In this document: positions 8,649 through 27,827 of the stretch, in pieces
How positions within the stretch are numbered: the stretch's first letter is position 1
Layout: each line of letters begins with the position of its first letter
Source: a virus
Reading direction: 5' to 3' (one strand)
Virus record (IMG/VR): IMGVR_UViG_3300022752_000246
Location: 1-32,620 of that record
DNA: 32,620 bases
The notes under the pieces: generated by a model
What the model was told of the DNA's origin: nothing
The model's database searches: none
What the model saw: only the letters and a program-made list of their open reading frames with translations
Made by a program: the position numbers and the translations under genes

Positions 8649-8701
8649 TTGACAAAGGGGCAAGAATGGGGTACGCTTGAATCGTGGCGAAAGGAGCAAC
8701 G
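8649..8701 (+). promoter_or_regulatory. Promoter cassette copy 1
   Basis: TTGACA (8649-8654), 17 nt ending GGGG, TACGCT (8672-8677), 6 nt, GTGG (8684), GAAAGGAG (8689-8696), ATGACC (8702). The predicted +1 falls near the GTGG box. This is one of seven near-identical cassettes in the window. Confidence 0.85.
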
Positions 8702-9100
8702 ATGACCACAGCAACAAAAACGGCAATGGATTACGGGGCAATCTTCGACGAGGCTGACAGGGCTGGCGTACTCGCTGGCACCGCCGCCATCCCGACACCG
8801 ATGGTCGTCGCCGAAGCCAAGGGACTCAGCAACGAGTTCGCCGAAGGCGCCACCAAGTATTTCGTCCCCGAGGGCGTGTGTGGGTTCGCTTGGGTCAACA
8901 TCAAGCCCGCAAGGGGCGGGTTCGTGGCTTGGCTCAAGAAGAGCGGCATCGGCAGGCTCGACGGCTACTACGGTGGCTGGACCATCTGGGTCCACGACTT
9001 CGGGCAGTCCTACGAAAGAAAGATTGCCTACGCAGGGGCGTTCGCCGAGGTCCTCCAGAAGTACGGCATCAAGGCTGACGCCAACGGGAGGTTGGACTGA
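8702..9100 (+). CDS. Conserved phage protein of unknown function
   Basis: A 132-residue protein. The ATG at 8702 is chosen because GAAAGGAG is 5 nt upstream; an in-frame GTG at 8684 coincides with the predicted transcription start. The sequence (TPMVVAEAKGL, VPEGVCGFAWVNIKPARGGF, WTIWVHDFGQSYERK, YAGAFAEVLQKYGI) recalls a protein I have seen widely in phages and annotated only as hypothetical. Cys and Trp are conserved-looking but no enzyme motif is evident. It is driven by promoter cassette 1 and followed by cassette 2, so it is likely a single-gene unit. Confidence 0.7.
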   Translation: MTTATKTAMDYGAIFDEADRAGVLAGTAAIPTPMVVAEAKGLSNEFAEGATKYFVPEGVCGFAWVNIKPARGGFVAWLKKSGIGRLDGYYGGWTIWVHDFGQSYERKIAYAGAFAEVLQKYGIKADANGRLD

Positions 9101-9101
9101 C

Positions 9102-9155
9102 TTGACAACTGAACCAAACATGGGGTATACTGAAAGCGTGGCGAAAGGAGAAAAC
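9102..9155 (+). promoter_or_regulatory. Promoter cassette copy 2
   Basis: TTGACA (9102-9107), 18 nt ending GGGG, TATACT (9126-9131), 6 nt, GTGG (9138), GAAAGGAG (9143-9150), ATGACC (9156). TATACT is the best -10 of the family. Confidence 0.88.
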
Positions 9156-9857
9156 ATGACCACGGCAACATCCACCGCTCCCACGGGAGGCACATTCAAG
9201 GAGAGGTATCCGCACGGATACACGCTCCTCAAGCGGGAGCGCAACCTCCACGACGACTCGTACTTCTACGAAATCATCTGGCTGGCGGACCTGAAGAAAA
9301 CCGAGACCATCGACACTGGCTCCACCGCCTACGACATCCCCGACGCCGTCGCTGGTCAGTCGGGACTGCCGACCATCTTCGAGGCACCAGCCGAGGTTCA
9401 GGCGGAGTTCCGTGCCTACGCAAGGGAAAAGGCGCTCGAGACCCGCAAGCGCTGGGCTGAGGGTGTCGCCAATGCGTACATCGAATCGTTCAACGACGCC
9501 GACGATGTCATCGTCGTCAAAGCGTTCAAGAACGGTGGCGTGAAGTACGAGGTCGGCACCAAGGGCAAGGTCTTCTGGCACGGCGCTGGCTACCTCAAGC
9601 ACTCGCCACGACGCATCGGCTTCAAGTTGGCGGACGGCACCAAGGTCTTCACCAACGAGGACAATGTCGAGAAACTCACCACCCTCGCCATCGACGAGCA
9701 GGCGGTCCACCACTGGGTCCACTCGATTGACGAGCATCTCGACAAGACCGACATCAAGAGCCTCCTCGGGTATGTGACGGGAATCCCGCACACCACCAAG
9801 GACTTCCAAGAGCGCAAGGCGGCGGGTGAGCAGTTCGTCCTGCGGGTGTTCGGATGA
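9156..9857 (+). CDS. Hypothetical protein with KOW/SH3-like segment
   Basis: A 233-residue protein. Residues about 115-175 contain VIVVKAFKNGGVKYEVG, TKGKVFWHGAGYL and IGFKLADGTKVFTNEDNVEKL, a beta-barrel pattern of the KOW/SH3-like kind seen in small nucleic-acid- or protein-binding domains. The N-terminal part includes YTLLKRERNLHDDSYFYEI and helical stretches. The start is set by promoter cassette 2 and its RBS. It overlaps the next gene by 4 nt (ATGA). Function is unknown. Confidence 0.65.
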   Translation: MTTATSTAPTGGTFKERYPHGYTLLKRERNLHDDSYFYEIIWLADLKKTETIDTGSTAYDIPDAVAGQSGLPTIFEAPAEVQAEFRAYAREKALETRKRWAEGVANAYIESFNDADDVIVVKAFKNGGVKYEVGTKGKVFWHGAGYLKHSPRRIGFKLADGTKVFTNEDNVEKLTTLAIDEQAVHHWVHSIDEHLDKTDIKSLLGYVTGIPHTTKDFQERKAAGEQFVLRVFG

Positions 9858-10312
9858 CCCGCTACCACCGCCGCTTCCGCAACCCGCACCGCAAGACGGT
9901 GGATGCGACCCGCCGCCTCATCCGTGGCTGGTCTACCGCCACCGAGGAAACCAAGTGGGAGAAGTCTCGCCAGTGGCTCGACGAGGTCTCACCCGTGTAC
10001 GGGATGACGGCACCGAAACTCAAGGTGCAGGAACGGGGCGTCGGTATCGGGTTGTACCACGCATCGGGCAACACCATCTACATGCCGTACCCGTCAATCA
10101 CGACGCTCCTCCACGAGTTCCGTCATGCGTTCCAGCACAGCCACCCGAGCCGCATGGTGCGGGACATCGAGGACGACGCCAGAGCGTGGTCCCTGAGCCT
10201 CTACTACCGTGTGGCGCCTCGCACGGTCCGCCGTCTCGCCGCCGAGGGTCGAATCCTGTTCCTCGAGGATTCGTTCCCGATGGTCCGCACGGGGCAGGGG
10301 GAACAGTTCTGA
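9854..10312 (+). CDS. Zincin-like metalloprotease-fold protein (HEFRH)
   Basis: A 152-residue protein with an HExxH motif in a helix: TLLHEFRHAFQH gives His87, Glu88 and His91. A downstream DIEDDARAWSLSLYY segment (104-118) offers Glu106 or an Asp as third zinc ligand, as in many small phage or IrrE/SprT-like zincins. The N-terminus is very basic (RYHRRFRNPHRK). It could be an active protease or an inactive DNA-associated zincin. It is translationally coupled to the previous gene. The motif is clear; substrate unknown. Confidence 0.68.
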   Translation: MTRYHRRFRNPHRKTVDATRRLIRGWSTATEETKWEKSRQWLDEVSPVYGMTAPKLKVQERGVGIGLYHASGNTIYMPYPSITTLLHEFRHAFQHSHPSRMVRDIEDDARAWSLSLYYRVAPRTVRRLAAEGRILFLEDSFPMVRTGQGEQF

Positions 10313-10321
10313 ACATCCGAC

Positions 10322-10377
10322 TTGACATCGGGACAAACATGGGGTACACTGGAATCGTGGAGAAGGGAGCCAAGTAG
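10322..10377 (+). promoter_or_regulatory. Promoter cassette copy 3
   Basis: TTGACA (10322-10327), 17 nt ending GGGG, TACACT (10345-10350), 6 nt, GTGG (10357), AAGGGAG, ATG (10378). Here a TAG codon lies between the GTG and the ATG, so the ATG must be the start. Confidence 0.85.
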
Positions 10378-11589
10378 ATGCCACGCAGAACATTCGTGAC
10401 CGAGATGACCGACCGCAGGGCGTATGAGATGCGCCAACTGTACGGTCTCTCCTACGCCGCAATCGCCGAGCAACTCGGCATGCGAGGCGAGTCGACCGCC
10501 CGTGTCGCCGCCAACCGCCACGCTCGCCGCCTCGGTCTCCAGCCGCTCACCCAGCCGATGACCGAAACCCAGCGTCAACGCCGACAGGCGGCTGGCGCCC
10601 GAGTCGCCCGACAGCGCTGGAACCAACCGACCAGCACCACCGTCACGACCTCACCGCTCACCACCGAGGTCGCCTCGACGATGTTGTCGATGCAGGACCG
10701 CACCTTCGGTATCGAACTCGAGTTCACTGGTCGCTACAAGCACGACACCGCCAACGCCATCGCCCAAGCGCTCGGCGTCCCGCACATCCACTCGATGGGC
10801 TATCACAGCCTCTCATGCGAAACCTGTGGTCGCCACATCCCCGAGAGCGAGCGCTACTCGCAGTGGCGTGTCGAGCGTGACGGCTCGGTGACACAGTTCC
10901 GTGGCGGTGGCGAGTGGGGCGGCGAGGTCGTGTCACCAGTCCTCAAACTCGCCGACCTGCCCATTGTCGAAAAAGTGTTGCGGGCGATGCGAACCCCAAC
11001 CGAGTCGATGGGACACGGTTTCGCCGCCACGACGAACCGCAGATGTGGTCTCCACATCCATGTGTTCACCAAGGACCTCACGAAGACCCAGCGAGCCAAC
11101 ATCGTCCGCCGCTGGGCGGCTCTCGACCAGTCGGTGATGCAGACACTCGTGGCGGTCTCCCGCCGAGGCAACTACTACTGCATGCCGATGTCATCACAGG
11201 AGGTCGACCGAGTGGCGTTCTTCCTCGAGAACGGAAACAGTGCGGCGCTCGAGACGGTCACCCAGAAGTACCGCTCGCTCAATGTGTTGCCGTTCAAGAA
11301 AATCGGCACCTTCGAGTTCCGACTCCACCAAGGCACACTCAACTTCAGCAAGGTGAAGAACTGGGTGACGCTACTGCTCGCCTTCGTCCAGAGCATGGGC
11401 GACGAACAGGAGGCGACGGTCGAGGGCGGAGCCGTCGAGCGCACCGAGCGCTTGCTCGACCTGCTCGTCGAGAAGACGCCAGTGACACAGAAACTCAAGA
11501 CCTTCTGGCTCAACCGCCAGCAACAGGTCAGCCCACAACTCCGCCGACAGGCGGCGTCAACAACACCAATACCACTGGAGGTAATCTAA
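10378..11589 (+). CDS. Amidoligase (COOH-NH2 ligase, Amidoligase_2-like) with N-terminal HTH
   Basis: A 403-residue protein. Residues 18-55 form a helix-turn-helix-like region (YGLSYAAIAEQLGMRGEST). The main domain carries family signatures: FGIELEFTG (110-118), WRVERDGSV (163-171), GGEVVSPVL (181-189), CGLHIHVF (223-230) and FEFRLHQGT (312-320). These are the metal/ATP-binding and catalytic blocks of amidoligases related to glutamine-synthetase-fold ligases, which join an amine to a carboxylate. A CETC pair at 147-150 and Cys223 are notable. It is coupled by 1 nt to a class II glutamine amidotransferase, an ammonia source. The target could be cell wall, a protein or a metabolite. Confidence 0.82.
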   Translation: MPRRTFVTEMTDRRAYEMRQLYGLSYAAIAEQLGMRGESTARVAANRHARRLGLQPLTQPMTETQRQRRQAAGARVARQRWNQPTSTTVTTSPLTTEVASTMLSMQDRTFGIELEFTGRYKHDTANAIAQALGVPHIHSMGYHSLSCETCGRHIPESERYSQWRVERDGSVTQFRGGGEWGGEVVSPVLKLADLPIVEKVLRAMRTPTESMGHGFAATTNRRCGLHIHVFTKDLTKTQRANIVRRWAALDQSVMQTLVAVSRRGNYYCMPMSSQEVDRVAFFLENGNSAALETVTQKYRSLNVLPFKKIGTFEFRLHQGTLNFSKVKNWVTLLLAFVQSMGDEQEATVEGGAVERTERLLDLLVEKTPVTQKLKTFWLNRQQQVSPQLRRQAASTTPIPLEVI

Positions 11590-12407
11590 TGTGCGGTATC
11601 GCAGGGTTCAGCATCAACGACCTTGACCACAAGAAACTCAAGACACGCCAGATAGCCGAGGCGCTGTTGCTCGCCATTCAGGAGCGTGGCGAGGATGCGA
11701 CTGGCGCCGCATGGTCCGAGAACGACAACGGCAAGCCAACCGTGTTCTACGCCAAGAGCGACATGCCAGCCCACGAGTTCGTCCAATCGCTGGACGAACT
11801 GATGCCGAGATTCGCACGGACCGCCATCCTGCACACCCGCTGGGCAACCAAGGGCGACCCTGCGGACAACGACAACAACCACCCCATCATCGTCGGCGAT
11901 ACGGTCGGCATCCATAACGGTGTAATCACGAACGACGACGAACTGTTCGAGGAGCATGGCTGGGAGCGTCAGGCTGAGGTCGACTCGGAGGCAATCTTCC
12001 AACTCATCGAGCATGCGAAAGACCCGCTCGTCGAACTGCCGAAACTAGAGGGTCGTGCCGCCATCGCATGGCTCGACACCAAGGAACCGAACACACTGCA
12101 CCTCGCCCGACTCGACGGCTCGCCGCTGTTCGTCGGCTACACGCAGAACGGTTCGGTGTTCTTCGCCTCGACGGCGACACTGCTCCGCCAAGCCGCCCAC
12201 GATGCGTTCCTCCGCCTCGTTCGGGTCGACGAGGTCGAGCCGTGGTCGTACATCAAGGTTGTCAAGGGTGTGATTCAAGCCCGCCGCAAACTGAAGCCGA
12301 ATCGTCCGCCGCTGGTGACCAAGCACGACGCACGATTCGCCGCCTTCCGTGCCGCCAAACAGCCGACGCTCGCCGAGATGGCGGGCAACGACTTCATGTG
12401 GGACTAA
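11589..12407 (+). CDS. Class II glutamine amidotransferase (Ntn hydrolase)
   Basis: A 272-residue protein beginning MCGIAGFSIN, where Cys2 becomes the N-terminal nucleophile after Met removal. Further family motifs are HTRWAT (82-87), NHPI (97-100), GIHNGVITN (107-115) and the EVDSEAIF block (130-137). The enzyme releases ammonia from glutamine; no synthetase domain is fused, and the C-terminal 60 residues are basic (RRKLKPNRPPLVTKH). RBS GGAGG lies at 11577-11581, and TAATG overlaps the amidoligase stop. The pair probably makes an amide bond using glutamine-derived nitrogen. Confidence 0.88.
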   Translation: MCGIAGFSINDLDHKKLKTRQIAEALLLAIQERGEDATGAAWSENDNGKPTVFYAKSDMPAHEFVQSLDELMPRFARTAILHTRWATKGDPADNDNNHPIIVGDTVGIHNGVITNDDELFEEHGWERQAEVDSEAIFQLIEHAKDPLVELPKLEGRAAIAWLDTKEPNTLHLARLDGSPLFVGYTQNGSVFFASTATLLRQAAHDAFLRLVRVDEVEPWSYIKVVKGVIQARRKLKPNRPPLVTKHDARFAAFRAAKQPTLAEMAGNDFMWD

Positions 12408-12436
12408 GCATCCACCATCTGCAGTCGTCGGATGCG

Positions 12437-12449
12437 TATGCTGTCCCCT
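12437..12449 (+). promoter_or_regulatory. Leaderless-type promoter for whiB
   Basis: TATGCT (12437-12442) is followed by 7 nt and then ATG at 12450, so the predicted transcript would begin at the start codon. No Shine-Dalgarno is visible. A clear -35 is lacking. Confidence 0.45.
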
Positions 12450-12890
12450 ATGTCTTGGCGTCAACAAGCCGCTTGTCTCGGTAAGCCCGCTTGCCTGTTC
12501 TTCGGGTCCGACGAAGAAACCCCAGAGGAACGCCAATCAAGGGAATCGACGGCGAAGGCTTTGTGCGCCACCTGCCCAGTGACCGAGCCGTGTCTCGAGG
12601 AGGGCAGATACGAGGAGGGCATTTGGGGCGGGTTGACTGTCGGTGAGCGCCGTGGGCGTCGCCGCACACACATCGTCCTCGAGCGCCCAATCGTGACCGT
12701 CGCCGACCAGCCGACTGATGCTAACCCGTGGACCGTCATCGAAACGAACGGAACCCACGCAATCTGGCAGAGGGAAACCGTCGACACTTGGCACGGCGCC
12801 GAGTGGGGTATCGCCCGCAACGGGATACTGACCACCACGCACGACGACCTCGACGCCGCCTACGCCGCCTACGGGCGCCTGTTAGAGTAG
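12450..12890 (+). CDS. whiB: WhiB-family Fe-S transcription regulator
   Basis: A 146-residue protein. MSWRQQAACLGKPACLFF, then ALCATCPVTEPC and GIWGGLTVGERR, are diagnostic of WhiB-like proteins: Cys9, Cys39, Cys42 and Cys48 bind a [4Fe-4S] cluster, followed by the G(I/V)WGG turn and a basic tail (RRGRRRTH). WhiB proteins are confined to Actinobacteria and their phages and act with the host sigma factor. The ATG at 12450 is preferred over 12432 because family members start just before the WR motif. A 70-residue extension after the basic tail (VIETNGTHAIWQRE, then TTTHDDLDAAYAAYGRL) is unusual. Confidence 0.9.
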   Translation: MSWRQQAACLGKPACLFFGSDEETPEERQSRESTAKALCATCPVTEPCLEEGRYEEGIWGGLTVGERRGRRRTHIVLERPIVTVADQPTDANPWTVIETNGTHAIWQRETVDTWHGAEWGIARNGILTTTHDDLDAAYAAYGRLLE

Positions 12891-12895
12891 CGCAC

Positions 12896-12970
12896 GGCGC
12901 CCACGGTAAGACTTCGTGAGGGTCGGAAACTCGAGCGTCTCCTTTCCGCCAGTTTCCAGCCGTGGGCGCC
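12896..12970 (+). repeat. Nested inverted repeat, candidate structured leader or operator
   Basis: GGCGCCCACGG (12896-12906) is the exact reverse complement of CCGTGGGCGCC (12960-12970). Inside it, GGAAACT (12925-12931) pairs with AGTTTCC (12951-12957). The 75-nt element fills the gap between whiB and the ParB-like gene and ends 13 nt before its GTG. There is no T tract, and tRNA consensus arms are absent. Confidence 0.6.
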
Positions 12971-12983
12971 AACCGAGGTAATC

Positions 12984-13541
12984 GTGCAACAGAACATCCT
13001 TCACCATGTACCAGTCGACGAACTGAAGTCGCACCCTGAGAACGCCCGCAAGGGCGACCTCGAGAAAATCATGGCGTCGATGCGAGCCAACGGATTCTTC
13101 GGGGCGCTCGTGGTCCAGTCTTCGACGAACTACATCCTCGTCGGGAACCACCGATGGCAGGCGGCGAAACGGATGGGGATGGAAACGGTCCCAGTGCTGT
13201 TCATCGACTGTGACGCCAAACAGGCGAGGAAGATAATGCTCGCCGACAACCGCTCGTCGGACTTGGCGACCTACGACTTCGACGAACTCGGCGACCTGCT
13301 GAAGAAGGTGATGACTGAGAGCGACCTTGGGGGCACTGGATTCGATGCGATTGACCTCCAGAAACTCATCGGGGAAGTCATCGACGAACCCAACGAGAAA
13401 CGCAAACGCAACCTCGAGCCGTTTCACAACTCGTATTGGCTGGTGAAGGCGCCAATCACCTTGCAGGGTGTGGTGACGGAGAAGTTGAACACCGCTCTCG
13501 CTCAGGTTGACGGTGTGGAGATTGCCTCGGCTACGCACTGA
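12984..13541 (+). CDS. ParB-like nuclease-domain protein
   Basis: A 185-residue protein from GTG. The N-terminal 75 residues show the ParB/Srx fold pattern: VDELKSHPENARKGDLEKIM (11-30), GFFGALVVQ (37-45) and ILVGNHRWQAAKRMG (51-65), the last being the 'G-x-HR' box. There is no centromere-binding HTH domain, so this is not a partition protein. Stand-alone phage ParB-like domains are often found beside DNA methylases and modification genes; here the next gene, coupled by TGATG, is methyltransferase-like. The C-terminal region is not recognised. Confidence 0.8.
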   Translation: MQQNILHHVPVDELKSHPENARKGDLEKIMASMRANGFFGALVVQSSTNYILVGNHRWQAAKRMGMETVPVLFIDCDAKQARKIMLADNRSSDLATYDFDELGDLLKKVMTESDLGGTGFDAIDLQKLIGEVIDEPNEKRKRNLEPFHNSYWLVKAPITLQGVVTEKLNTALAQVDGVEIASATH

Positions 13542-14116
13542 TGCGACGCCAAGTTCTCACCCCGAACAGCCACCTGTCGACGAAGTTGCGGGTCCGCAAG
13601 GAGGCGCTCGAGCGCATCGGAAAGTCGGAGGTGCATGTGCTGGACGCCTTCGCTGGTCAGGAAATCGTGTGGGGGGCGATGCGACGGGTCTGCCCAGACA
13701 TCAACATCACGACGCTGGGAATCGACAAGGCGAAGTACCTGAAGCCGTCAATCATCATGGGCGACAACCGCAAGGTGATGAAGGGTCTCGACCTCACGGA
13801 GTTCGACCTCATCGACTTGGACGCCTTCGGTTGCCCGTGGGAGCAACTCGCCATCTGCGCCGAGCAGGCGCCGCAGGTGCCCGTGGTGGCGACCCACATC
13901 ATCGTGACGCTCGGACCGACACCGAGGCAACTGTTGGAGGCTGGCGGCATCCCGAAGGATTGGACGGACCGCAAACGGGTGCCGCATGCGTTGTTCAATC
14001 GGTGGCGTTGGGACTGGTGGGAGAACTACTGCGCCACACTCGGGTACAAGGAAGCCAACTACGAACTGCATCTCGACAAGTCCGCCGTCAAGCGCTACGA
14101 ATCTCTATGGTGGTAA
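13541..14116 (+). CDS. Class I SAM methyltransferase-like protein (Trm1-like motifs)
   Basis: A 191-residue protein. VHVLDAFAGQ (31-40) fits SAM-binding motif I, TLGIDKAKYL (58-67) the acidic end of strand 2, and DLIDLDAFGCPWEQL (89-103) motif IV. The D-x-FG-x-P pattern is similar to the DPFGSP motif of Trm1 tRNA guanine methyltransferases rather than to DPPY/NPPY DNA adenine methylases. No target-recognition domain is visible at this size. It may methylate a nucleic acid or have lost activity. It is coupled to the ParB-like gene and precedes the ABC/Mom-like cluster. Confidence 0.68.
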   Translation: MRRQVLTPNSHLSTKLRVRKEALERIGKSEVHVLDAFAGQEIVWGAMRRVCPDINITTLGIDKAKYLKPSIIMGDNRKVMKGLDLTEFDLIDLDAFGCPWEQLAICAEQAPQVPVVATHIIVTLGPTPRQLLEAGGIPKDWTDRKRVPHALFNRWRWDWWENYCATLGYKEANYELHLDKSAVKRYESLWW

Positions 14117-14163
14117 AGTCACCATCACCACGGGCGCTCAACCGTGCTGTATCATGCACGGTG

Positions 14164-14376
14164 ATGTCAACGACCGACTTGGAAACCCGCTATGTCGAGG
14201 TGTGCGAACGCCTCGCCGCCGCACTTCAGGTCGTCGAGCGCCTCAACATGCAGATTCACCGACTCAAGGCGGAGTTAGCATCCTCGGAAGAGTTCATTGA
14301 CCGCATGTTGCAACGGGAGGAAACATGGGAGCCGACGAAAACGGTGGAACCGCCGCACCACATCAACATCGACTAA
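14164..14376 (+). CDS. Short coiled-coil protein
   Basis: A 70-residue protein starting at ATG 14164. Residues 5-52 form a heptad-like helix (RYVEVCERLAAALQVVERLN, then RLKAELASSEEFIDRML), so a coiled coil is likely. It has no Shine-Dalgarno; TATCAT at 14150-14155 lies 8 nt before the ATG, suggesting a very short or absent leader. It overlaps the ABC ATPase start by 52 nt. Confidence 0.55.
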   Translation: MSTTDLETRYVEVCERLAAALQVVERLNMQIHRLKAELASSEEFIDRMLQREETWEPTKTVEPPHHINID

Positions 14377-15050
14377 ACGCAACAAACGAAACGGCGTTCG
14401 TCTACGGGTCTACCGCCGCCGAGGTGTCGGTCATGTTCGACTACACGCCGCCAAAGACACACCAGCCGTTCGAGCCGTTCGACCTCACGCCGCTTCTCGA
14501 GGACTTCACCATCGGCATCGTGGTCGGCTCCTCGGGGTCGGGGAAGACGCAAGCGCTCAAGGCGGCTGGTTTCAACCCAGAAGAAGACTCGGAGCGTGGC
14601 TTGGACCAGTGGCACCCGAAGTTCTGTGTGCTGGACCACTTCTCGGTAGCCGCTGATGCGATTGAACTCCTGGGGGCGGCTGGTCTCAACTCGGTCCCGC
14701 AATGGTTCAAGCCCTTCCAACTACTGTCGAACGGCGAGCAGTATCGGGCGCAACTGGCACGGCGGATGAGCGTCTCCTCAAGGAATCGGACCACGCTGTT
14801 CGTCGACGAGTTCACGAGCGTCGTGGACCGCACGGTGGCACGAAGCCTATGCGAGTCCCTGAACCGCTACGCCTCGAAGGGGCGTCGAATCGTCGTGGCG
14901 ACCTGCCACCGTGATGTTGTGGGTTGGCTCCGCCACGATTGGGTGGTCGACACCGACCTGAACGAGGTCATCCGCCCCACGGAGCGCCGCCCCGCCTCAC
15001 ACTGGCTGGTATCGCTCGACGAGCATGTCGGCACCATCACCCGTGGCTGA
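14325..15050 (+). CDS. ABC-type ATPase of the Mom/COG2401-like kind
   Basis: A 241-residue soluble ATPase. IGIVVGSSGSGKT (63-75) is the Walker A, LSNGEQYRAQLARR (134-147) the ABC signature, TLFVDEFTS (157-165) the Walker B, and VVATCHRD (190-197) the switch histidine. No membrane segment or permease gene is present, so it is not a transporter. The N-terminal lead-in (FDLTPLLEDFTIGIVVG) resembles ABC ATPases that are fused to or encoded beside a predicted acetyltransferase (COG2401). The next gene is a GNAT-like protein, so the two probably act together, plausibly on DNA. GGAGG lies upstream of the ATG. Confidence 0.82.
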   Translation: MGADENGGTAAPHQHRLNATNETAFVYGSTAAEVSVMFDYTPPKTHQPFEPFDLTPLLEDFTIGIVVGSSGSGKTQALKAAGFNPEEDSERGLDQWHPKFCVLDHFSVAADAIELLGAAGLNSVPQWFKPFQLLSNGEQYRAQLARRMSVSSRNRTTLFVDEFTSVVDRTVARSLCESLNRYASKGRRIVVATCHRDVVGWLRHDWVVDTDLNEVIRPTERRPASHWLVSLDEHVGTITRG

Positions 15051-16604: not shown

Positions 16605-16617
16605 TGTTCTGTCTCCC

Positions 16618-16773: not shown

Positions 16774-17410
16774 ACTCAACGCCAACATCCCCATCCAACA
16801 GTGGTATGTCAGGGGCAACTATCTGCGGGACCAGCGTGATTCGCACGACAAACTCTTCCCATGCGTCGTGTTCGGCGTCGCTTCGATGGTCGGGAAACCG
16901 CCACTCTTCCACTTTCTCATGGAGGACGGCGGATTGTGGTGGAGGATGCCCGTATCGGCGTTCTGCACACACGAGGACGCACCGCCGATGCACCTCGAGG
17001 ACCTGATTCTTTGGGACTGCCTCTCCAACTTCGTGACCGTCACCGAGTTCGACGCACTGAGCAAGATGCGTATGTCCTACCGTGACAGGGAGGGCGAAAC
17101 ACACCGTGGTCGCTACCTTTTCACGCTCGACTGGCACACACCCGACCCGAACACGCTGGATTGCGGCTACTCGAACTCGCCGAACGAACACAAGTGCGGG
17201 CATGTCATCGAACTCGACAACGGCAACATCGCCATCCAACCGAACAACAGGGTGAGACTGTTCGAGCCTTCGTTCACGGTGAAGAACGAGGTGGTGATTG
17301 AGAGACTGGTGAACACGCACGACTGGACCGTCGAAACGGGTGACGACTGGTTGACGGAGGACACCGAGAACTTCGAGTACGGCATGCGACAGCCCGAGCG
17401 CAACGACTGA
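16766..17410 (+). CDS. Conserved phage hypothetical protein
   Basis: A 214-residue protein beginning MPELNANIPIQQWYVRGNYL. The pattern (FHFLMEDGGLWWRMPVSAFC, LILWDCLSN, RYLFTLDWHTPDPN, EHKCGHVIELDNGNIAIQPN, VRLFEPS) matches a protein I recall from many marine T4-like phages, annotated only as hypothetical. It seems to be beta-rich with conserved Cys and Trp residues. No catalytic motif can be named. It overlaps the preceding small gene by 8 nt. Confidence 0.72.
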   Translation: MPELNANIPIQQWYVRGNYLRDQRDSHDKLFPCVVFGVASMVGKPPLFHFLMEDGGLWWRMPVSAFCTHEDAPPMHLEDLILWDCLSNFVTVTEFDALSKMRMSYRDREGETHRGRYLFTLDWHTPDPNTLDCGYSNSPNEHKCGHVIELDNGNIAIQPNNRVRLFEPSFTVKNEVVIERLVNTHDWTVETGDDWLTEDTENFEYGMRQPERND

Positions 17411-17421
17411 GAATCTCGGCG

Positions 17422-17601
17422 ATGGTTGGCGGCAGGATGGGCGAAGACCCCAAACTTGAGCCGTGGAAGGCGCCCGAGCATCTGGATTGGTCGGTTATCT
17501 GCGGGCATTGCTACCAGCCGATGCGACCAGAACACGCCCATTATCGCTGTCACAACTGCGGGGAGAGGGATTCGTGTTGTGAGGGCGGATTCATGGGCTG
17601 A
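17422..17601 (+). CDS. Small zinc-ribbon protein
   Basis: A 59-residue protein starting at ATG 17422. Two CxxC knuckles are seen, CGHC (27-30) and CHNC (43-46), followed by a GERDSCCEGG ending. This double-knuckle arrangement with an RDSCCEG tail is common in small phage proteins of unknown role and implies one structural zinc. It lies in the 200 bases between the preceding gene and promoter cassette 4. DNA or protein binding is possible. Confidence 0.7.
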   Translation: MVGGRMGEDPKLEPWKAPEHLDWSVICGHCYQPMRPEHAHYRCHNCGERDSCCEGGFMG

Positions 17602-17610
17602 TTCCCCGAC

Positions 17611-17663
17611 TTGACATCGGGGCACAAGTGGGGTACACTTGAATCGTGGGAAAGGAGACCACG
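17611..17663 (+). promoter_or_regulatory. Promoter cassette copy 4
   Basis: TTGACA (17611-17616), 17 nt ending GGGG, TACACT (17634-17639), 6 nt, GTGG (17646), AAAGGAG, ATGACC (17664). Confidence 0.86.
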
Positions 17664-17879
17664 ATGACCGAAAAACTGGTGACCATCGAAGAGTTCTTCA
17701 AGTGGGGAGTTCAACAAGGCGCCCAAAACACGCCTCTCGCCCAACTGAGGGAAGAGTTCAAGGCGCTCGAATGGGTCGCCGAAACGACCACCCAAAAGGC
17801 GCTGGAAACCAAGTGGAGAAAAGAGGCGCTCTTCGAGGTGCTGAACTGGAGAATCCCAGCCCTCGGCAAAGCCGCCTAA
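17664..17879 (+). CDS. Small hypothetical protein under cassette 4
   Basis: A 71-residue, mainly helical protein (MTEKLVTIEEFFKWGVQQG). The ATG 17664 is set by the RBS; the in-frame GTG at 17646 sits on the predicted transcription start. It is rich in Lys, Glu and Trp, with no motif. It appears to be a single-gene transcription unit. Confidence 0.65.
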   Translation: MTEKLVTIEEFFKWGVQQGAQNTPLAQLREEFKALEWVAETTTQKALETKWRKEALFEVLNWRIPALGKAA

Positions 17880-17911
17880 CGACCATCCACCACCCCGCAA
17901 CACCGCTCAAC

Positions 17912-17924
17912 TAAGGTGGTCGAC
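17912..17924 (+). promoter_or_regulatory. Leaderless-type -10 box
   Basis: TAAGGT at 17912-17917 is followed by 7 nt and the ATG at 17925, with no Shine-Dalgarno. This is the same spacing as at whiB. Confidence 0.35.
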
Positions 17925-18161
17925 ATGACAGAAAACCCCAAATACCTACTCGAAGCCCGCTCAAACAAGGTGTTTCTGAAGATTCAGTTCGCCGCCTCGA
18001 ACGACGAACAGGCGATACTCGACTGCATCGACATCATTCTGTCGGGCGCCGAACGCAACGCCGACCCGTGGTGTTTCGGCGAAATCCGCCTCAGCAACGA
18101 CCTCGGAGTCGAGTTGCTCGGAATCCCCACACTGCAAAAACCCGAACCATTCCACGGTTGA
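17925..18161 (+). CDS. Small hypothetical protein
   Basis: A 78-residue protein beginning MTENPKYLLEARSNKVFLKI. It has an alpha/beta pattern with a CIDIILSGAERN helix and GVELLGIPTLQKP strands. An in-frame GTG at 17916 lies inside the proposed -10 box, so ATG 17925 is preferred. Synonymous positions favour C and A. No family is recognised. Confidence 0.55.
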   Translation: MTENPKYLLEARSNKVFLKIQFAASNDEQAILDCIDIILSGAERNADPWCFGEIRLSNDLGVELLGIPTLQKPEPFHG

Positions 18162-18164
18162 GCC

Positions 18165-18446
18165 ATGCGACCAACCTTCGACGAATGGTTGAAACAGGGC
18201 TACGACCTCGGATTCTGCGGACCACCAATCTGCCCCGACCATGACGGAATCCCGATGTCGTTCGCCGAAGAAACGATTGTCGACGCTGACGGCGAATGGT
18301 GCTGTCACATCGTCCGCCTCTATGAGGACGCCCGCCACAAGTACGCAATCGAACGGCACCACTCGCCGAGCGTATGGAGAGCCGTGAACCTCGGATGGCA
18401 GGATGCGACCCTCAGAATCGTCGAACCACCATCTGAAGACGCCTAA
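18165..18446 (+). CDS. Conserved phage hypothetical protein
   Basis: A 93-residue protein with CGPPICPDHDGIPMS, ADGEWCCHIVRLYED and HHSPSVWRA. I recall this pattern from small proteins in many actinophages with conserved Cys/His and the NHSPSVWR-type end; no function is assigned to that family. Cys18, Cys23 and the CC pair might bind a metal. It starts 3 nt after the previous stop. Confidence 0.65.
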   Translation: MRPTFDEWLKQGYDLGFCGPPICPDHDGIPMSFAEETIVDADGEWCCHIVRLYEDARHKYAIERHHSPSVWRAVNLGWQDATLRIVEPPSEDA

Positions 18447-18452
18447 ACGCCG

Positions 18453-18671
18453 CTACAACGCCCTCTCCAGTTCTCGGGCTAACACCACCAAATCGTCATC
18501 CCCACTCAATCTCGAGTGAAGCAGGATGCGTCTGGCAAGCAATCTCACCATCCACCTCAACCGAGAGTTTTCGTCCCGCAACGCCTCCCGAGACGCTTTT
18601 TCGCCGTAATACTTCGCCCAGCCGACACGCCTAGACGCCTCGACCCCGTCAACAACCCTCGCTGACACCAT
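18453..18671 (-). CDS. Minus-strand small leucine-zipper-like protein
   Basis: A 72-residue protein read on the minus strand, ATG at 18671-18669, with GGAG 9 nt upstream, the best RBS of the possible starts. ALRDENSRLRWMVRLLARRI has a leucine/hydrophobic heptad and basic residues, followed by GDDDLVVLARELERAL. It is the only minus-strand ORF in the window that looks like a gene rather than a shadow: it fills otherwise empty sequence and is convergent with the + strand gene ending at 18446. Confidence 0.55.
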   Translation of the reverse strand: MVSARVVDGVEASRRVGWAKYYGEKASREALRDENSRLRWMVRLLARRILLHSRLSGDDDLVVLARELERAL

Positions 18672-18968
18672 GACATCGTTCTCCAATCGTGCTTGAACCT
18701 TGCACCCGTATCTGACGGTCGAAGAGGACCGTTGAACAGTCGAATGTCAGGTCGCTCATGTCACTTGACATCGAGAATCCCACGATTCGGTGATGCGACC
18801 GTTTTTGCCGGGGGAAGCAGATTCCAAAACCGCCGCAACCTCACCTACAAGGAAGAGAGAGAAACACACACACCACCACACACCCAAACCCCACTCAACA
18901 AAACACCCACCCAACCACCCCACTAAACCCACCCCAAACCACCAAAAACACCTAAAATCACACCCACC
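18672..18968. other. Noncoding gap before the terminase, A/C-rich
   Basis: About 297 nt without a convincing gene. The first half contains an isolated TTGACA (18765-18770) with no good -10 at the right distance. From about 18846 the + strand becomes very rich in A and C and almost free of G and T. TAAAAT at 18953-18958 lies 10 nt before the small-terminase ATG. A packaging (pac/cos) site could lie here, but none can be proved. Confidence 0.5.
18953..18968 (+). promoter_or_regulatory. -10-like box before terminase small subunit
   Basis: TAAAAT (18953-18958) matches the -10 consensus at five of six positions and is 10 nt from the ATG. There is no Shine-Dalgarno, so the transcript leader would be minimal. 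Confidence 0.35.
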
Positions 18969-19409
18969 ATGCCCCGCAAAATCGGAAGAACCACCAAACT
19001 CAACCCACAAACCCAACAAAAAATCATCGACGCCATCACCGCAGGCAACTACCTCGAAACCGCCGCAAACTACGCAAACATCAGCAAAACCACCCTCTAC
19101 CGATGGCTCGCCGAAGCAGAACAACCCAACGCACCCAAGCGCCTGCGGGAGTTTCGTGACGCCGTGGAGCAGGCTCGGGCGGCGTCAGAAGTTCGGAATG
19201 TGACGCTGGTTCAGCGGGCGGCGAATGATGGAAGTTGGCAGGCGGCGTCGTGGTATCTGGAGAGGTCGTTTCCCGCTCGTTGGGGGAAGAATCAGAAGGT
19301 GGAGGTGACTGGTGCGGATGGGGCGCCGTTGAAGTTGGATGTCTCGGTGGATGAACTGGCGTCGAAGATTGAGGGATTGCTCGGCGATGGCGGACCTAAA
19401 CCCGAGTAG
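18969..19409 (+). CDS. terS: Terminase small subunit
   Basis: A 146-residue protein. Residues 10-50 (KLNPQTQQKIIDAITAGNYL, then ANISKTTLYRWLAEAEQ) form the HTH domain used to recognise packaging-site DNA; a helical oligomerisation part follows (EFRDAVEQARAASEVRNVTL) and then a C-terminal segment with WYLERSFPARWG. It sits immediately before the large subunit and overlaps it by 23 nt. The synonymous-site composition changes abruptly at about 19137, from C/A-ending to G/T-ending codons, inside the gene. Confidence 0.85.
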   Translation: MPRKIGRTTKLNPQTQQKIIDAITAGNYLETAANYANISKTTLYRWLAEAEQPNAPKRLREFRDAVEQARAASEVRNVTLVQRAANDGSWQAASWYLERSFPARWGKNQKVEVTGADGAPLKLDVSVDELASKIEGLLGDGGPKPE

Positions 19410-21171
19410 CGCATCGTTGGAGGCGAGGATTGTCGCCTTTCTTCGTGATGCGACCCCGTTGAGGCGGCGGGAATGGCTCGCCAATCTCACCTATGAGGAG
19501 CGGGCGGCTGTCGCTGTCATCGTTCAGCGGATAGCGGAGGACCCGTGGAGCCAGTATCGAGGGGACCCTGTCGGATTCGTCGAGAGAGGCTTATGCGAGA
19601 CCATTTGGAGCAAACAGCGGGAGATTCTCGAGTCGGTTCGTGACAACAAGCGCACCGCAGTGCCCGCTTGTCACGCCCCCGGCAAGTCCCACCTCGCCGC
19701 CCGTATCGTCGCCTACTGGACGATGACAAACCCTCTCGGGACTAGTCAGGTAGTCACCACCGCTACCACCTTCAGACAAGTCCGCAACATTCTCTGGTCC
19801 CACATCCGCACACTGCACTCACGCCACAACCTCGACGGGGACTGTCTCACCACCGAATGGAAGCGTGATGCGAGCGTCGTAGCGTTCGGATTCGCCCCAG
19901 CCCAATACAACGAGACAGCACTGCAAGGAATCCACGCACCAAACCTACTCATCGTCGTAGACGAAGCAGGCGGAATCAGCGACACGATAGGCAACGCACT
20001 CGAAGCCCTAATGACAGGCGAAAACACACGCCTACTCTTACTCGGAAACCCACCCACCGACACAACAAACTCATGGTTCGAGCGAGCCTGCCGAAGCAAC
20101 CTCTACAACACAATCAGAATCAGCGCCTACGACACACCAAACTTCACAGGCGAACCAACAGGAACCTGCACAACCTGCCCACCAACCGTCAAAAAACACG
20201 CAATCGCCACCCACCTAGTCGACAAACAATGGGTCGACGACATAATCCACGAACTCGGAGACAACTCACCGTTCGCCCAAGCCAGAATCCACGCCAACTT
20301 CGTCGAAAACACCACAAACCGAATCATCCCCGCCTCATGGATAGACGAAGCAACACGCAACACCAACCCAGCCCACTCAAACGACATAAAACTCGGCGTA
20401 GACATCGCCTCAGACGGCGGAGACGAGTTCGTCATCGCCCGCATCGACGGCTACACCGCCCGAATCATCCACACCTCAAGCGGAGACGCCAACGCCAACG
20501 CCGTCACCGTCGCCCAAACCATACTCAAACACATCCACGACGCCGAAGCAACTTTACATAACAACCGTTATGGGCACCACGAACAGTGGTCACCCGACCA
20601 CCCACAGCGTTCACCCCACCAACATGAACAACAGGTAAACACAACCCAAACACCAGATGAACAACAGGTAAACACAAGGGGTGGGGGGTCCTTGCTCGGT
20701 CGTGCGAAGGGGGGCTTGCCGGGTATGGTCTCTGTGAAGGTTGATGCTATTGGGTTGGGTTGGGGGGTTGTTAGTTTGTTGGAGTTGTGGGGTCGGGAGG
20801 GGTTGCATGAGGCGAGGGTGGTTGGGGTGAATGTGGCGGAGCGGGCTGTTGATGCTGGTCGGTTCAAGAATGTGAGGGCGGAGATGTGGTGGAATCTTCG
20901 GGTGTTGTTGGAGCCTGATTCTGGTGGGGGGCAGTTGGTTTCGTTGGTTGGTTTGGATGTGCGTTCGGTGGGTCAGTTGGGGTTGGGTGAGTTTGTGGCT
21001 GATTCGTCGGGGCGGTTGAAGGTGGTTGGGAAGGGGGAGATGCGGGGTCGGGGTTTGGGGTCTCCTGACCGTGCTGAGGCGTTGTTGTTGGGTTTTTATG
21101 AGCCGAGGGTGTGGGTTGCGCCTGTTGTGGCTCCTGTGTCGGTGGGTCAGGTGAATCCTTGGTTGATGTGA
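19387..21171 (+). CDS. terL: Terminase large subunit with an insert in the nuclease domain
   Basis: A 594-residue packaging motor. ATPase: CHAPGKSH (95-102), a degenerate Walker A, and LLIVVDEAG (187-195), Walker B with catalytic Glu. Nuclease: LGVDIASDGGDE (336-347), VKVDAIGLGWG (450-460) and GSPDRAEALL near the C-terminus give the three acidic metal-binding blocks. ATG 19387 is chosen as it follows the small subunit by overlap. Residues about 388-446 are a Gln/His/Asn-rich insert with in-frame repeats, placed between the first and second nuclease blocks. Codon wobble switches from C/A-rich to G/T-rich at about the insert. Confidence 0.9.
   Translation: MADLNPSSASLEARIVAFLRDATPLRRREWLANLTYEERAAVAVIVQRIAEDPWSQYRGDPVGFVERGLCETIWSKQREILESVRDNKRTAVPACHAPGKSHLAARIVAYWTMTNPLGTSQVVTTATTFRQVRNILWSHIRTLHSRHNLDGDCLTTEWKRDASVVAFGFAPAQYNETALQGIHAPNLLIVVDEAGGISDTIGNALEALMTGENTRLLLLGNPPTDTTNSWFERACRSNLYNTIRISAYDTPNFTGEPTGTCTTCPPTVKKHAIATHLVDKQWVDDIIHELGDNSPFAQARIHANFVENTTNRIIPASWIDEATRNTNPAHSNDIKLGVDIASDGGDEFVIARIDGYTARIIHTSSGDANANAVTVAQTILKHIHDAEATLHNNRYGHHEQWSPDHPQRSPHQHEQQVNTTQTPDEQQVNTRGGGSLLGRAKGGLPGMVSVKVDAIGLGWGVVSLLELWGREGLHEARVVGVNVAERAVDAGRFKNVRAEMWWNLRVLLEPDSGGGQLVSLVGLDVRSVGQLGLGEFVADSSGRLKVVGKGEMRGRGLGSPDRAEALLLGFYEPRVWVAPVVAPVSVGQVNPWLM
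20557..20601 (+). repeat. Two adjacent hairpins inside terL
   Basis: CATAAC (20557-20562) pairs with GTTATG (20567-20572) across 4 nt, and GTGGTC (20586-20591) pairs with GACCAC (20596-20601) across 4 nt. Both are perfect 6-bp stems at the left edge of the low-complexity insert. Confidence 0.55.
20624..20677 (+). repeat. 33-bp-periodic direct repeat inside terL
   Basis: A perfect 21-bp repeat occurs at 20624-20644 and 20657-20677 (key sequence GAACAACAGGTAAACACAA), 33 nt apart, so it is in frame and encodes EQQVNT twice. It lies between the hairpins and the G/T-rich segment. Confidence 0.75.
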
Positions 21172-21262
21172 TGCGATGGGGGGGGGTTGTGTTTTGTAAA
21201 AAAAGTTGGTCGCCTTCGGCGAGGGGGGGTGTTTGGTTGGGGTGGGTTTTTTGGTGGGGTAC

Positions 21263-21312
21263 TTGACACGGGTACTAAAGCGGGGTAGAGTGGGATTGTC
21301 GAAAGGGGACCG
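21263..21312 (+). promoter_or_regulatory. Promoter cassette copy 5 (divergent)
   Basis: TTGACA (21263-21268), 17 nt ending GGGG, TAGAGT (21286-21291), 6 nt, GTCG in place of GTGG, AAAGGGG, ATGACC (21313). It is the first gene unit after the terminase. Confidence 0.82.
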
Positions 21313-21666
21313 ATGACCACCTTCACCGTTCAGTTCCAATACAACGAGTTCGGACCGCTCGGCTTCTACGCCGAGTCGCAAAAGTTCGCCACCAAGGACC
21401 AAGCCGAGGCGTTTCTCGCCACCCTCCCGAAGAGCCTGAGGGCTTTCGTTCGTGAATACGCCCCCGCCGTCTCGTTCACCGTCATGCTCAGGGTTCCGTA
21501 CTTCCATCAGAGGGCGCAAAGCGGACCCCGCAACGAGACGGGTCTGAAGCGAGCCAAGCGACTCCTGACCGACCCCCGTTTCAACATCGAGATGGTGCAA
21601 ACCCCCTACTCCTACGGGACGGTCGAAGAAGCCCTCGCCGCCATCGAAAAAGAACTCGCCCTGTGA
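21313..21666 (+). CDS. Hypothetical accessory protein
   Basis: A 117-residue protein (MTTFTVQFQYNEFGPLGFYA). It is alpha/beta with a SFTVMLRVPYF strand and a C-terminal helix (TVEEALAAIEKELAL). There is no recognised domain. It is expressed from cassette 5, and its stop overlaps the next GTG by 4 nt. Confidence 0.65.
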   Translation: MTTFTVQFQYNEFGPLGFYAESQKFATKDQAEAFLATLPKSLRAFVREYAPAVSFTVMLRVPYFHQRAQSGPRNETGLKRAKRLLTDPRFNIEMVQTPYSYGTVEEALAAIEKELAL

Positions 21667-21923
21667 CCGAGTTCGTTCTCCAGCGCCGCACCGCTGATGG
21701 GTGGCGCCGCTTCCTCGTGGACGGGCAGGCAACCCAAACCTCGGCAAGACTCACCTCGGCGATGCGATTCGCCACCGCCGTCGAAGCCGACTTCTACAGG
21801 CTCAGGTTCGGGCTGTGGGACTTCGAGGTCGTGCAGGCGGTCGACGACGACCATGAGGCGGAGCGGGCGGAGTTCCAAAAGAATCGCACCAAGATGTCAC
21901 ACCCGAGAAAGGACCGTGCGTAG
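21663..21923 (+). CDS. Hypothetical accessory protein
   Basis: An 86-residue protein from GTG in a GTGA overlap. MTEFVLQRRTADGWRRFLVD and FGLWDFEVVQAVDDDHE suggest a small beta-alpha fold; the tail is basic (KNRTKMSHPRKDRA). It is translationally coupled to its neighbour. No family recognised. Confidence 0.6.
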   Translation: MTEFVLQRRTADGWRRFLVDGQATQTSARLTSAMRFATAVEADFYRLRFGLWDFEVVQAVDDDHEAERAEFQKNRTKMSHPRKDRA

Positions 21924-21930
21924 TTAGAGC

Positions 21931-22239
21931 ATGACAACGACAACGGAATACAGCGAAACATTCACCCTGACCTTCGACGAGATGTGGCTCATCGTCAAAT
22001 CGTTGAACGCCCGCATCGGTCCGCTCATCGAGGAGGGCAAAATCTACGGTGAGCAGATGCAGATGGTCTTGCGGCTCAGCGAGATGTTTCAGGATGCGAT
22101 GGCTCGGGGCGCCGCCGACCTCGAGGATGCCGTCGAAAAGGACACCGAACACCCGTTCGTGGAGGTGGTGAGCCGTTTTCATTTGTACGAAGATTTGACG
22201 AAACCACTTGACGAATGGGACACTGGTGGGGTAGAATGA
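21931..22239 (+). CDS. Hypothetical helical protein
   Basis: A 102-residue protein (MTTTTEYSETFTLTFDEMWL). It has mainly helical segments (IVKSLNARIGPLIEEGKIYG, QMVLRLSEMFQDAMARGAAD) and an acidic C-terminus. No RBS is visible; a TAGTTA box ends 4 nt before the ATG. The next promoter cassette lies in its last codons. Confidence 0.6.
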   Translation: MTTTTEYSETFTLTFDEMWLIVKSLNARIGPLIEEGKIYGEQMQMVLRLSEMFQDAMARGAADLEDAVEKDTEHPFVEVVSRFHLYEDLTKPLDEWDTGGVE

Positions 22240-22261
22240 AGTCGTGGGGAAAGGAGCCACA
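22208..22261 (+). promoter_or_regulatory. Promoter cassette copy 6
   Basis: TTGACG (22208-22213), 18 nt ending GGGG, TAGAAT (22232-22237), 6 nt, GTGG (22244), GAAAGGAG, ATGACC (22262). Confidence 0.84.
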
Positions 22262-22489
22262 ATGACCACGAAAACCAAGAAGCGCTACTACCTGATGGTC
22301 GTCATCCTCGAGTTGGCTGACGGCGGCACCCAGTTCGAGGAGTTCATCGAGGAGTTCGCCAACGACGAGCAGGCAGACAAGGCAGTCAAGGTGCTTGCCA
22401 AGCGGCTCAAGAAGGAGTTTGGTGCCAAGCACATCGAAGACGCCTACGCCCAGTACGAACCAGAAGAAGGAACCTACGGTCAAGCCTGA
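22262..22489 (+). CDS. Small hypothetical protein under cassette 6
   Basis: A 75-residue protein starting at ATG 22262. YYLMVVILELADGG is a strand and EEFANDEQADKAVKVLAKRL a helix, giving a simple beta-alpha pattern; no known domain. It is followed 13 nt later by another start, so the unit is probably bicistronic. Confidence 0.62.
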   Translation: MTTKTKKRYYLMVVILELADGGTQFEEFIEEFANDEQADKAVKVLAKRLKKEFGAKHIEDAYAQYEPEEGTYGQA

Positions 22490-22502
22490 AAGGGGGCAAG
22501 CA

Positions 22503-22844
22503 ATGACATACAAACTGAGCAAGTCCGAATGGGCGGTGGGTCGGGACATCCTCGGCTACGCCGACGAGGCGAAGTTCGCCGAACTCGTGGAGTGGGCGGA
22601 CCGCAAGGGCTACTGGGCTGACTGGTCCGAGTTCGACGACGACCAGTTCATCGAGTGGCACACCACGGTCATCCAAGCCCAGCACGACGAGTACGCCACC
22701 GCCATGAGCGAGATGGAGGCGGCAGGGCTGACCGCCAAAGAGGCGGCTAAGCAGTTCGCCGTCAAGCAGGCGCTCGCCAAGATGAAGACGGTCCTCGAGA
22801 GTCCCGAGTTCGTCGCCATCGTCGAGGCGGACATCCCGAGTTGA
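22503..22844 (+). CDS. Hypothetical helical protein
   Basis: A 113-residue protein starting at ATG 22503 with a purine-rich AAGGGGG upstream. It is almost entirely helical, with acidic and Trp residues (WADRKGYWADWSEFDDDQF), and ends in a long helix (LTAKEAAKQFAVKQALAKMK). No motif is seen. Promoter cassette 7 starts inside its last codons. Confidence 0.6.
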   Translation: MTYKLSKSEWAVGRDILGYADEAKFAELVEWADRKGYWADWSEFDDDQFIEWHTTVIQAQHDEYATAMSEMEAAGLTAKEAAKQFAVKQALAKMKTVLESPEFVAIVEADIPS

Positions 22845-22893
22845 CAACGGGGCAGAAACGGGGTATGATGGAGTCGTGGGGAGAGGAGGAAAA
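22841..22893 (+). promoter_or_regulatory. Promoter cassette copy 7
   Basis: TTGACA (22841-22846), 17 nt ending GGGG, TATGAT (22864-22869), 6 nt, GTGG (22876), GAGAGGAGG, GTGACC (22894). Confidence 0.84.
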
Positions 22894-23142
22894 GTGACCA
22901 GCCAAAAGGTTCTGTTGGGGGTGCTGGCGGCGGCGGTTCTCGTGACCATGCCAGTCAAGTTCGGCACCACCACCAGAGGCAACCAGTTCAAGAAGGGCAC
23001 CAAGGCGCCCGCCGCCGAGGTGGTCGGGGCGGTCATCGATAAAGATGCCGCCGCCAAGTTGAAGGCGCTCGAGACGCCCATCGACTGGGCTGACCCGCTC
23101 GCCAGCCAAGTCACTCATCCAAAGAAAGGGGAACAGCAATGA
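22894..23142 (+). CDS. Small membrane or secreted protein
   Basis: An 82-residue protein from GTG with GGAGG upstream. Residues 5-20 (KVLLGVLAAAVLVTMPV) are strongly hydrophobic and could be a membrane anchor or uncleaved signal; the remainder is Lys/Ala-rich and soluble. Such early small membrane proteins in phages often interfere with superinfection or host functions, but nothing specific can be claimed. Its end carries the first copy of a 31-bp repeat that also contains the next gene's RBS and ATG. Confidence 0.62.
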   Translation: MTSQKVLLGVLAAAVLVTMPVKFGTTTRGNQFKKGTKAPAAEVVGAVIDKDAAAKLKALETPIDWADPLASQVTHPKKGEQQ

Positions 23143-24060: not shown

Positions 24061-24116
24061 CAACCCACGACTGTCCCGCTATCATCTAATCCAACAAACA
24101 ACGAAAGGAAAGAAAC
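24057..24116 (+). promoter_or_regulatory. Sigma-70 promoter, not of the cassette family
   Basis: TTGACA (24057-24062), 17 nt, TATCAT (24080-24085), then a 31-nt leader with GAAAGGAA before ATG 24117. It lacks the GGGG and GTGG boxes of the cassettes. Confidence 0.75.
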
Positions 24117-27825: not shown

Positions 27826-27827
27826 CC

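Follow-up and report, generated by a model that had tools for sequence, protein, structure and literature searches.

Repeated promoter cassettes of an uncultured phage join a candidate tandem operator to a predicted start codon at the transcript 5' end

In leaderless genes of actinobacteria, the first T of the TAnnnT -10 element lies 12 base pairs (bp) ahead of the start codon, a spacing that serves to define such genes (PMC3160421; PMC3898074), and in mycobacteria an ATG or GTG at the 5' end of the transcript is both necessary and sufficient for leaderless initiation (PMC4633059). Repeated elements of phage genomes include the start-associated sequences (SAS) of cluster K mycobacteriophages (PMC3203893) and cluster EF Microbacterium phages (PMC7302621) and the operators/stoperators of cluster A mycobacteriophages such as L5 and TipsytheTRex (PMC9283540). 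Here we analyze a promoter cassette that is repeated seven times in IMG/VR record IMGVR_UViG_3300022752_000246, the 32,620-nucleotide (nt) sequence of an uncultured virus, referred to below in its full length as the window. The GTG that follows the -10 element of this cassette most likely serves as a start codon at the 5' terminus (leaderless initiation), with a second start led by a Shine-Dalgarno (SD) sequence about 18 nt further on, usually in the same frame.

The pattern GGGGTANNNTN6GTSG occurs exactly seven times in the 32.6 kb, always on the + strand, confirming the seven copies reported in an earlier note on this DNA; no other exact copy is present. The last triplet is GTG in six cassettes and GTC in one (21298). 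GGGGTANNNTN6GTG was observed six times against 0.04 expected and none of 100 shuffles reached six; a chance origin of the set is excluded. The TTGAC(A/G) -35 element and the 17- or 18-nt spacers (-35 to -10, with GGGG counted in) agree with the earlier description, as does the (A/G)TGACC start, which is found in six of the seven copies (the 10322 copy begins ATGCCA). The cassettes, which are found on both sides of the terminase gene, are laid out as follows.

8649..8704, + strand: cassette 1; -35 at 8649-8654, G-boxes at 8657-8662 and 8668-8673, -10 at 8672-8677, +1 GTG at 8684, SD sequence, ATG 8702 in frame at +18; gene 8702-9100.
9102..9158, + strand: cassette 2; -35 at 9102-9107, degenerate box GAACCA at 9111-9116, GGGGTA at 9122-9127, -10 at 9126-9131, +1 GTG at 9138, ATG 9156 in frame at +18.
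10322..10380, + strand: cassette 3; boxes at 10330-10335 and 10341-10346, -10 at 10345-10350, +1 GTG at 10357 opening a six-codon frame that ends in TAG 10375-10377, with ATG 10378 adjoining (helix-turn-helix (HTH)-amidoligase gene 10378-11589).
17611..17666, + strand: cassette 4; boxes at 17619-17624 and 17630-17635, -10 at 17634-17639, +1 GTG at 17646, ATG 17664 in frame at +18.
21263..21315, + strand: cassette 5; boxes GGTACT at 21271-21276 and GGGGTA at 21282-21287, -10 at 21286-21291, +1 triplet GTC (21298), which is no start codon, SD-led ATG 21313.
22208..22264, + strand: cassette 6; TTGACG, 18-nt spacer, boxes at 22217-22222 and 22228-22233, -10 at 22232-22237, +1 GTG at 22244, ATG 22262 in frame at +18; 5' end within the preceding open reading frame (ORF) 21931-22239.
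22841..22896, + strand: cassette 7; boxes at 22849-22854 and 22860-22865, -10 at 22864-22869, +1 GTG at 22876, second start GTG 22894 in frame at +18.

A motif search in relatives, the check proposed in the earlier note, found GGGG and GTGG kept there. By contrast, the strict cassette had no match in 84,980 species genomes, no near-identical phage DNA was present among 50,697 phage records searched, and the same cassette was not found in the cultured phages Laroye, Ottawa and ValentiniPuff. Since a looser viral scan returned, apart from the phage's own relatives, mostly single unrelated matches due to chance or to other phages, the motif is clade-specific, that is, confined to this phage and its relatives.

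When 30 non-redundant cassettes from the clade were aligned by their -10 element, the consensus was TTGACA, then GGG(G/A)CA at -27 to -22, T-GGGG at -17 to -13 running into TAnnnT at -12 to -7, six bases ending in (T)C, and G1 T2 G3 G4, with -1 preferably C or T and +1 preferably G. At least 10 of the 12 consensus positions of a housekeeping-sigma promoter (TTGACA-like -35, 16-18 nt, TAnnnT) are present in six of the seven window copies. The cassettes are thus very probably host-type (TTGACA/TAnnnT) promoters, with the transcript predicted to start at the GTG. The idea of repeated promoter cassettes conserved beyond what RNA polymerase recognizes was borne out in both the window and the relatives. 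The SD sequence and (A/G)TGACC start are likewise present in the cassettes, but they are not specific to them and are ordinary for this phage: SD-led ATGACC or ATGACA starts lacking the promoter are also found at 21931, 23139 and 23408. The last two, which belong to successive genes, share a common SD-start block, AAGAAAGGGGAACAGCAATGACCAC.

The distance from the first T of TAnnnT to the GTG is exactly 12 bp in six of the seven cassettes, which places the GTG at the predicted +1 of the transcript. In relatives, where we counted offsets for 271 non-redundant TTG-type promoter matches, the +1 offset holds GTG 37 times, ATG 16 times and TTG twice, most other offsets giving about 0-9, mainly 1-5; a second GTG peak (23) at offset 4 is mostly due to another type of leader, GTGGAGGG, which has a 5' hairpin. 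Reading from +1 gives a frame of at least 40 codons in 42 of the 53 cases; the two remaining frames are that long in 4 and 20. Three genes of relatives that are orthologous from residue 1, L074:746 (ATG), L102:3814 (GTG) and L078:2004 (ATG), begin at +1 without an SD sequence, and the changes between the L074 and L102 genes are mainly synonymous. GTG and ATG are also exchanged at +1 between the orthologues L012:2722 (GTG) and L081:93 (ATG). The cassette 1 gene has orthologues at L011:6031(-) and L012:1809; the latter carries ATT in place of the SD-led ATG of the window, and its next ATG, GTG or TTG lies 38 codons past the GTG, a case qualified by the capacity of ATT with an SD sequence for weak initiation. 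Together these observations make use of the +1 GTG as a start likely. The GTGG box of the earlier note is conserved as proposed, but it is better accounted for by a 5'-terminal start codon of the transcript than by a protein-binding box.

Relatives at L081:1759, L095:8788, L100:842, L105:3435, L108:1433 and L114:361 carry the 5'-terminal hairpin leader in the form GTGGAGGG...CCTCC. It sits between promoter and SD sequence, in place of the +1 start codon.

The two starts are related in frame. In all six GTG cassettes of the window the distance from GTG to the next start is a multiple of three (with TAG just before the ATG at 10322), and 22 of 25 cassettes with both starts have them in frame, whereas permuted SD-to-start spacings average 11.0 (p<1e-5). 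The frame is preserved at other leader lengths (15, 24 and 30 nt), and the orthologues L028:2459 and L065:7602 have leaders of 18 and 30 nt. Where the frame is not kept, the +1 frame stops at or near the next start in the cases examined: by TAG followed by ATG (10322 and L012:3190), by TGA within ATGA (L041:8419 and L084:6659, automatic for that frame), a few bases past the next start (L041:1033) or before it (L075:1734). At the amidoligase gene the TAG-ATG junction is kept in L011:4032(-) and, with different sequence, in L012:3190, and this leader-peptide arrangement recurs in four relatives.

As in leaderless genes of Actinobacteria, the first T of TAnnnT precedes ATG or GTG by 12 bp, these codons are used there at the 5' end, and leaderless small ORFs occur upstream of genes (PMC3160421; PMC3898074; PMC4633059). 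Unlike those genes, the phage cassettes mostly have a second, SD-led start, usually in frame, and the arrangement is repeated in the genome as a cassette with a putative operator.

A competing explanation is that the cassettes are host-type promoters of an ordinary sort, each with a short SD leader of 18 nt, in which TCGTGG is no more than a favored initial transcribed sequence that was copied along with the cassette, and only the downstream ATG or GTG is used. Several observations speak for it and weigh against a +1 start codon. A downstream ATG or GTG with an SD-like purine run is present in each of the seven window copies, so that sole reliance on the +1 codon is absent in the window, and genes dependent on that codon are known in relatives only (L074:746, L078:2004, L102:3814 and L012:1809). 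The +1 triplet is GTC in cassette 5 and ATC or AAC in some relatives, and a +1 start codon is therefore dispensable. The codons between both starts gave no clear signal of coding constraint. Moreover, cassettes without a +1 start codon also tend to the 18-nt leader and are in frame in 11 of 16 cases (p=0.005), which means that the frame signal is in part due to inheritance of an 18-nt leader; with control cassettes biased too, we rejected the in-frame statistic as sole proof. This explanation nevertheless has to face the substitution of ATG for GTG at this position, seen in relatives and from one orthologue to another, the several genes that have no SD-led start, the loss of the second start in L012:1809 and the failure of TTG to be enriched at +1, and we consider it unlikely.

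The second major feature of the cassette lies between its -35 and -10 elements. The GGGG of the earlier note is indeed conserved, but not as a lone box: it is the second half of a tandem direct repeat, GGG(R)CA-N5-GGGGTA, whose first half had been overlooked. This first box, at -27 to -22, reaches up to 1.6 bits per position and lies exactly 11 bp upstream of GGGGTA; because the 11 bp are also kept with 18-nt spacers, it is tied to the -10 side and not to the -35. A candidate regulator and a further copy of the pair are found together in the window.

24057..24119, + strand: XRE-operon promoter (eighth promoter), TTGACA-17-TATCAT, with an ordinary SD leader to ATG 24117 and no +1 start codon.
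24064..24077, - strand: reversed G-box pair GGGACA-N4-TGGG in the XRE-operon promoter spacer, a putative autoregulatory operator.
24470-24727, + strand: HTH_3 (XRE/Cro-C1 type) protein of 85 amino acids, candidate repressor of the cassettes (Pfam HTH_3, 4.6e-15).

The XRE protein matches PHROG transcriptional repressor families, and its operon reads 24117-XRE-24724 from the promoter at 24057. The strict core GGGRCAN4TGGG occurs five times in the window against 0.18 expected, four times in cassettes and the fifth time reversed in the XRE-operon promoter; a reversed core with different inner bases is found in three other lineages (L063/L064, L065 and L069-L071). Counting all putative binding sites, seven are forward in cassettes and one is reversed at the promoter of the regulator. 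Of the 61 portal-anchored contigs that extend at least 1.5 kb upstream, 17 have the tandem box, all with a homologue of 24470-24727, 38 have neither, and six have XRE without the box. In an XRE profile search carriers scored at least 102 bits and other lineages at most 15, with no weaker homologue in the latter, and the HTH segment RKT[VI]NRIE is invariant across carriers. On the TerL tree the window and the non-XRE lineage 2 fall together, apart from XRE lineage 3, and the tandem box therefore follows XRE and not the terminase.

Other results count against binding of the tandem box by the XRE protein. The six XRE contigs without the box form one clade; in its examined members, the palindrome GGGGC-N6-GCCCC is found in the promoter that lies about 670-700 bp upstream of XRE. 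XRE presence changes only about twice on the portal tree; the 61 contigs are therefore not independent points, the Fisher p of 2e-10 for co-occurrence is overstated, and we rejected it as independent proof. The reversed site at the XRE promoter scores at background under the full position weight matrix, and its case therefore rests on the strict pattern, its position and its conservation. XRE proteins usually favor inverted repeats, and a symmetric dimer would be expected to do likewise. SinR has a 10-fold preference for inverted over tandem repeats (PMC3163267), so that the phage protein would possibly bind as two dimers, or else the binding reading is wrong. On this evidence, the chances that the XRE protein binds the tandem box appear about even. 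In a relative lineage without XRE (L074:3364, L075:1234 and L075:1734), an inverted CCCC-N7-GGGG occupies the same spacer position, which suggests an operator of its own.

We lean toward a model of internal host-polymerase promoters that are repressed by XRE and give rise to start-codon-first transcripts; the position of the RNA start, the use of GTG, XRE binding, and repression as opposed to activation are steps that we infer. As a first layer of control, the tandem operator GGG(R)CA-N5-GGGGTA, whose half-sites are spaced by one helical turn and face the same side of the DNA, would extend from the -35/-10 spacer into the -10, and the phage XRE protein would bind it and block polymerase at the seven cassettes, while also controlling its own operon via the reversed copy. 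As a second layer, derepressed host polymerase would start at the G of GTG, and the first three bases of the mRNA would therefore be a start codon. Ribosomes could then initiate at this 5'-terminal codon, at the SD-led codon (usually 18 nt on, in the same frame) or at both, which would yield two forms with different N termini. In front of the amidoligase gene, the leaderless frame would stop just before the ATG and encode a leader peptide coupled to amidoligase. The complete design, with one XRE repressor, many identical modules, half-sites that are tandem and not palindromic and are fused to the -10, and two in-phase starts per module, is put forward tentatively; if true, the same gene would be translatable under a leaderless or an SD-led regime during infection.

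The G-boxes might instead be a site for a host factor, or an extended -10 or spacer preference of the host polymerase. GGGG does abut the -10, where extended -10 contacts occur, and the host itself is only probably actinobacterial, so a host factor is conceivable. However, positions -27 to -22 lie beyond the known base contacts of polymerase, the spacer differs in sequence in lineages whose phage genes are similar but which lack XRE, and it is the XRE-operon promoter that holds the reversed pair; we regard a host site as possible, though short of probable. It might also be argued that the XRE protein activates the cassettes, given that a pair forward in the cassettes and reversed at the XRE promoter could give opposite effects. 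Yet a protein bound between -35 and -10 should block polymerase, and with a near-optimal spacing of 17-18 nt and near-consensus hexamers activation appears unneeded. Activation is accordingly improbable, and repression by XRE is the form of regulation that we retain.

The suggestion that the cassettes define single- or few-gene units was not supported, as terminator-like sites are at background (20 versus 17.7 +/- 4.8). Because, in addition, the cassettes at 22208 and 22841 overlap the preceding gene, starting within it or at its stop, they resemble internal promoters within a single long series running rightward, not isolated units. Between the terminase gene and cassette 5, the stretch 21170-21262 has strand-asymmetric runs of G and T that include a terminator-like hairpin at 21211-21231.

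The cassettes resemble several described systems in part. Like the repressor sites of cluster A, the operators/stoperators (PMC9283540), the putative XRE sites are asymmetric, repeated and mostly in one orientation with respect to transcription. Unlike them, every putative site of this phage lies inside a full promoter, and the 85-residue HTH_3 candidate repressor has no room for a second DNA-binding domain. The L5 stoperator, for which we take the 13-bp GGTGGMTGTCAAG to be the cluster A consensus, is not enriched in the window, with two matches at up to two mismatches against 1.95 expected. The SAS (PMC3203893; PMC7302621) are likewise repeated blocks near small-gene starts; they cover the ribosome-binding site, with upstream inverted repeats in the extended form, whereas the cassette consists of a full -35/-10 promoter and a putative tandem operator, and its ribosome-binding site is not specially conserved. 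A match test upheld the view that the sequence differs from the cluster K SAS: with GGGATAGGAGCCC (K) and GGGAAAGGACCCC (EF), two of the seven cassettes are within two mismatches (17648 and 22247), via the AAAGGAG SD itself. The cassettes are members of neither the SAS nor the stoperator family. Laroyevirus (Arthrobacter phage Laroye, cluster AL) has a similar order of terminase, small genes and portal and several TTGACA/TAnnnT promoters with a repeated spacer element, but this element is CTAACAGNCTGTTA, the leaders are longer and there is no GTG-at-+1 pattern. In Laroye (L169), the CTAACAGNCTGTTA palindrome abuts the -10 at 27192, 30725, 31309, 33665, 47327(-) and 47853(-), apparently an undescribed operator array. 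By sequence, the closest natural solved relatives of the XRE protein are C-proteins of restriction-modification systems (C.AhdI 1e-5, C.BclI 2e-4), which are also small HTH_3 proteins and autoregulate, as XRE putatively does. In contrast to C-proteins, no restriction-modification genes were identified beside XRE, and its putative targets are phage promoters.

The record encodes terminase, portal, head-morphogenesis, RecE-like and replication-initiation proteins, and Rfam and tRNA scans gave no matches in it. Three further genes are of interest.

10378-11589: Amidoligase_2 with an N-terminal sigma-70-region-4-like HTH, the gene of cassette 3.
11589-12407: class II glutamine amidotransferase-like ORF (MCGIAGF...), directly 3' of the amidoligase.
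12432-12890: WhiB-family gene, another possible regulator, which points to an actinobacterial host.

Given this WhiB gene and the infection of Arthrobacter by the closest cultured phages (46-52% amino acid identity in terminase and portal), the host of the phage is probably an actinobacterium. In Laroye, amidoligase and amidotransferase are likewise adjacent. A genome-collection contig with a Gammaproteobacteria label for its metagenome-assembled genome (L168) encodes a portal protein 80% identical and is probably a misbinned phage contig. The large ORFs 3' of the portal gene contain five copies of a 24-residue motif that closely resembles KASFGGDRSAAGRYAAEQRWKGHV (27912, 28998, 30057, 31130 and 32574), three of them inside ORF 27783-30938.

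As judged from sequence comparison, the cassettes are real, clade-specific composites of promoter, putative operator and predicted start codon, with ingredients of known kinds in a new combination. If the model is true, a vague conserved motif would become a testable circuit made up of a repressor, eight operators, a promoter and two start codons, and many small phage genes could have their true 5' ends and N-termini called by a fixed rule. The cassettes would also offer a naturally occurring series of constructs with which to study why a phage of actinobacteria keeps leaderless and SD-led initiation on one message. More broadly, repeated phage elements by start codons could then be promoter-operator-start-codon composites.

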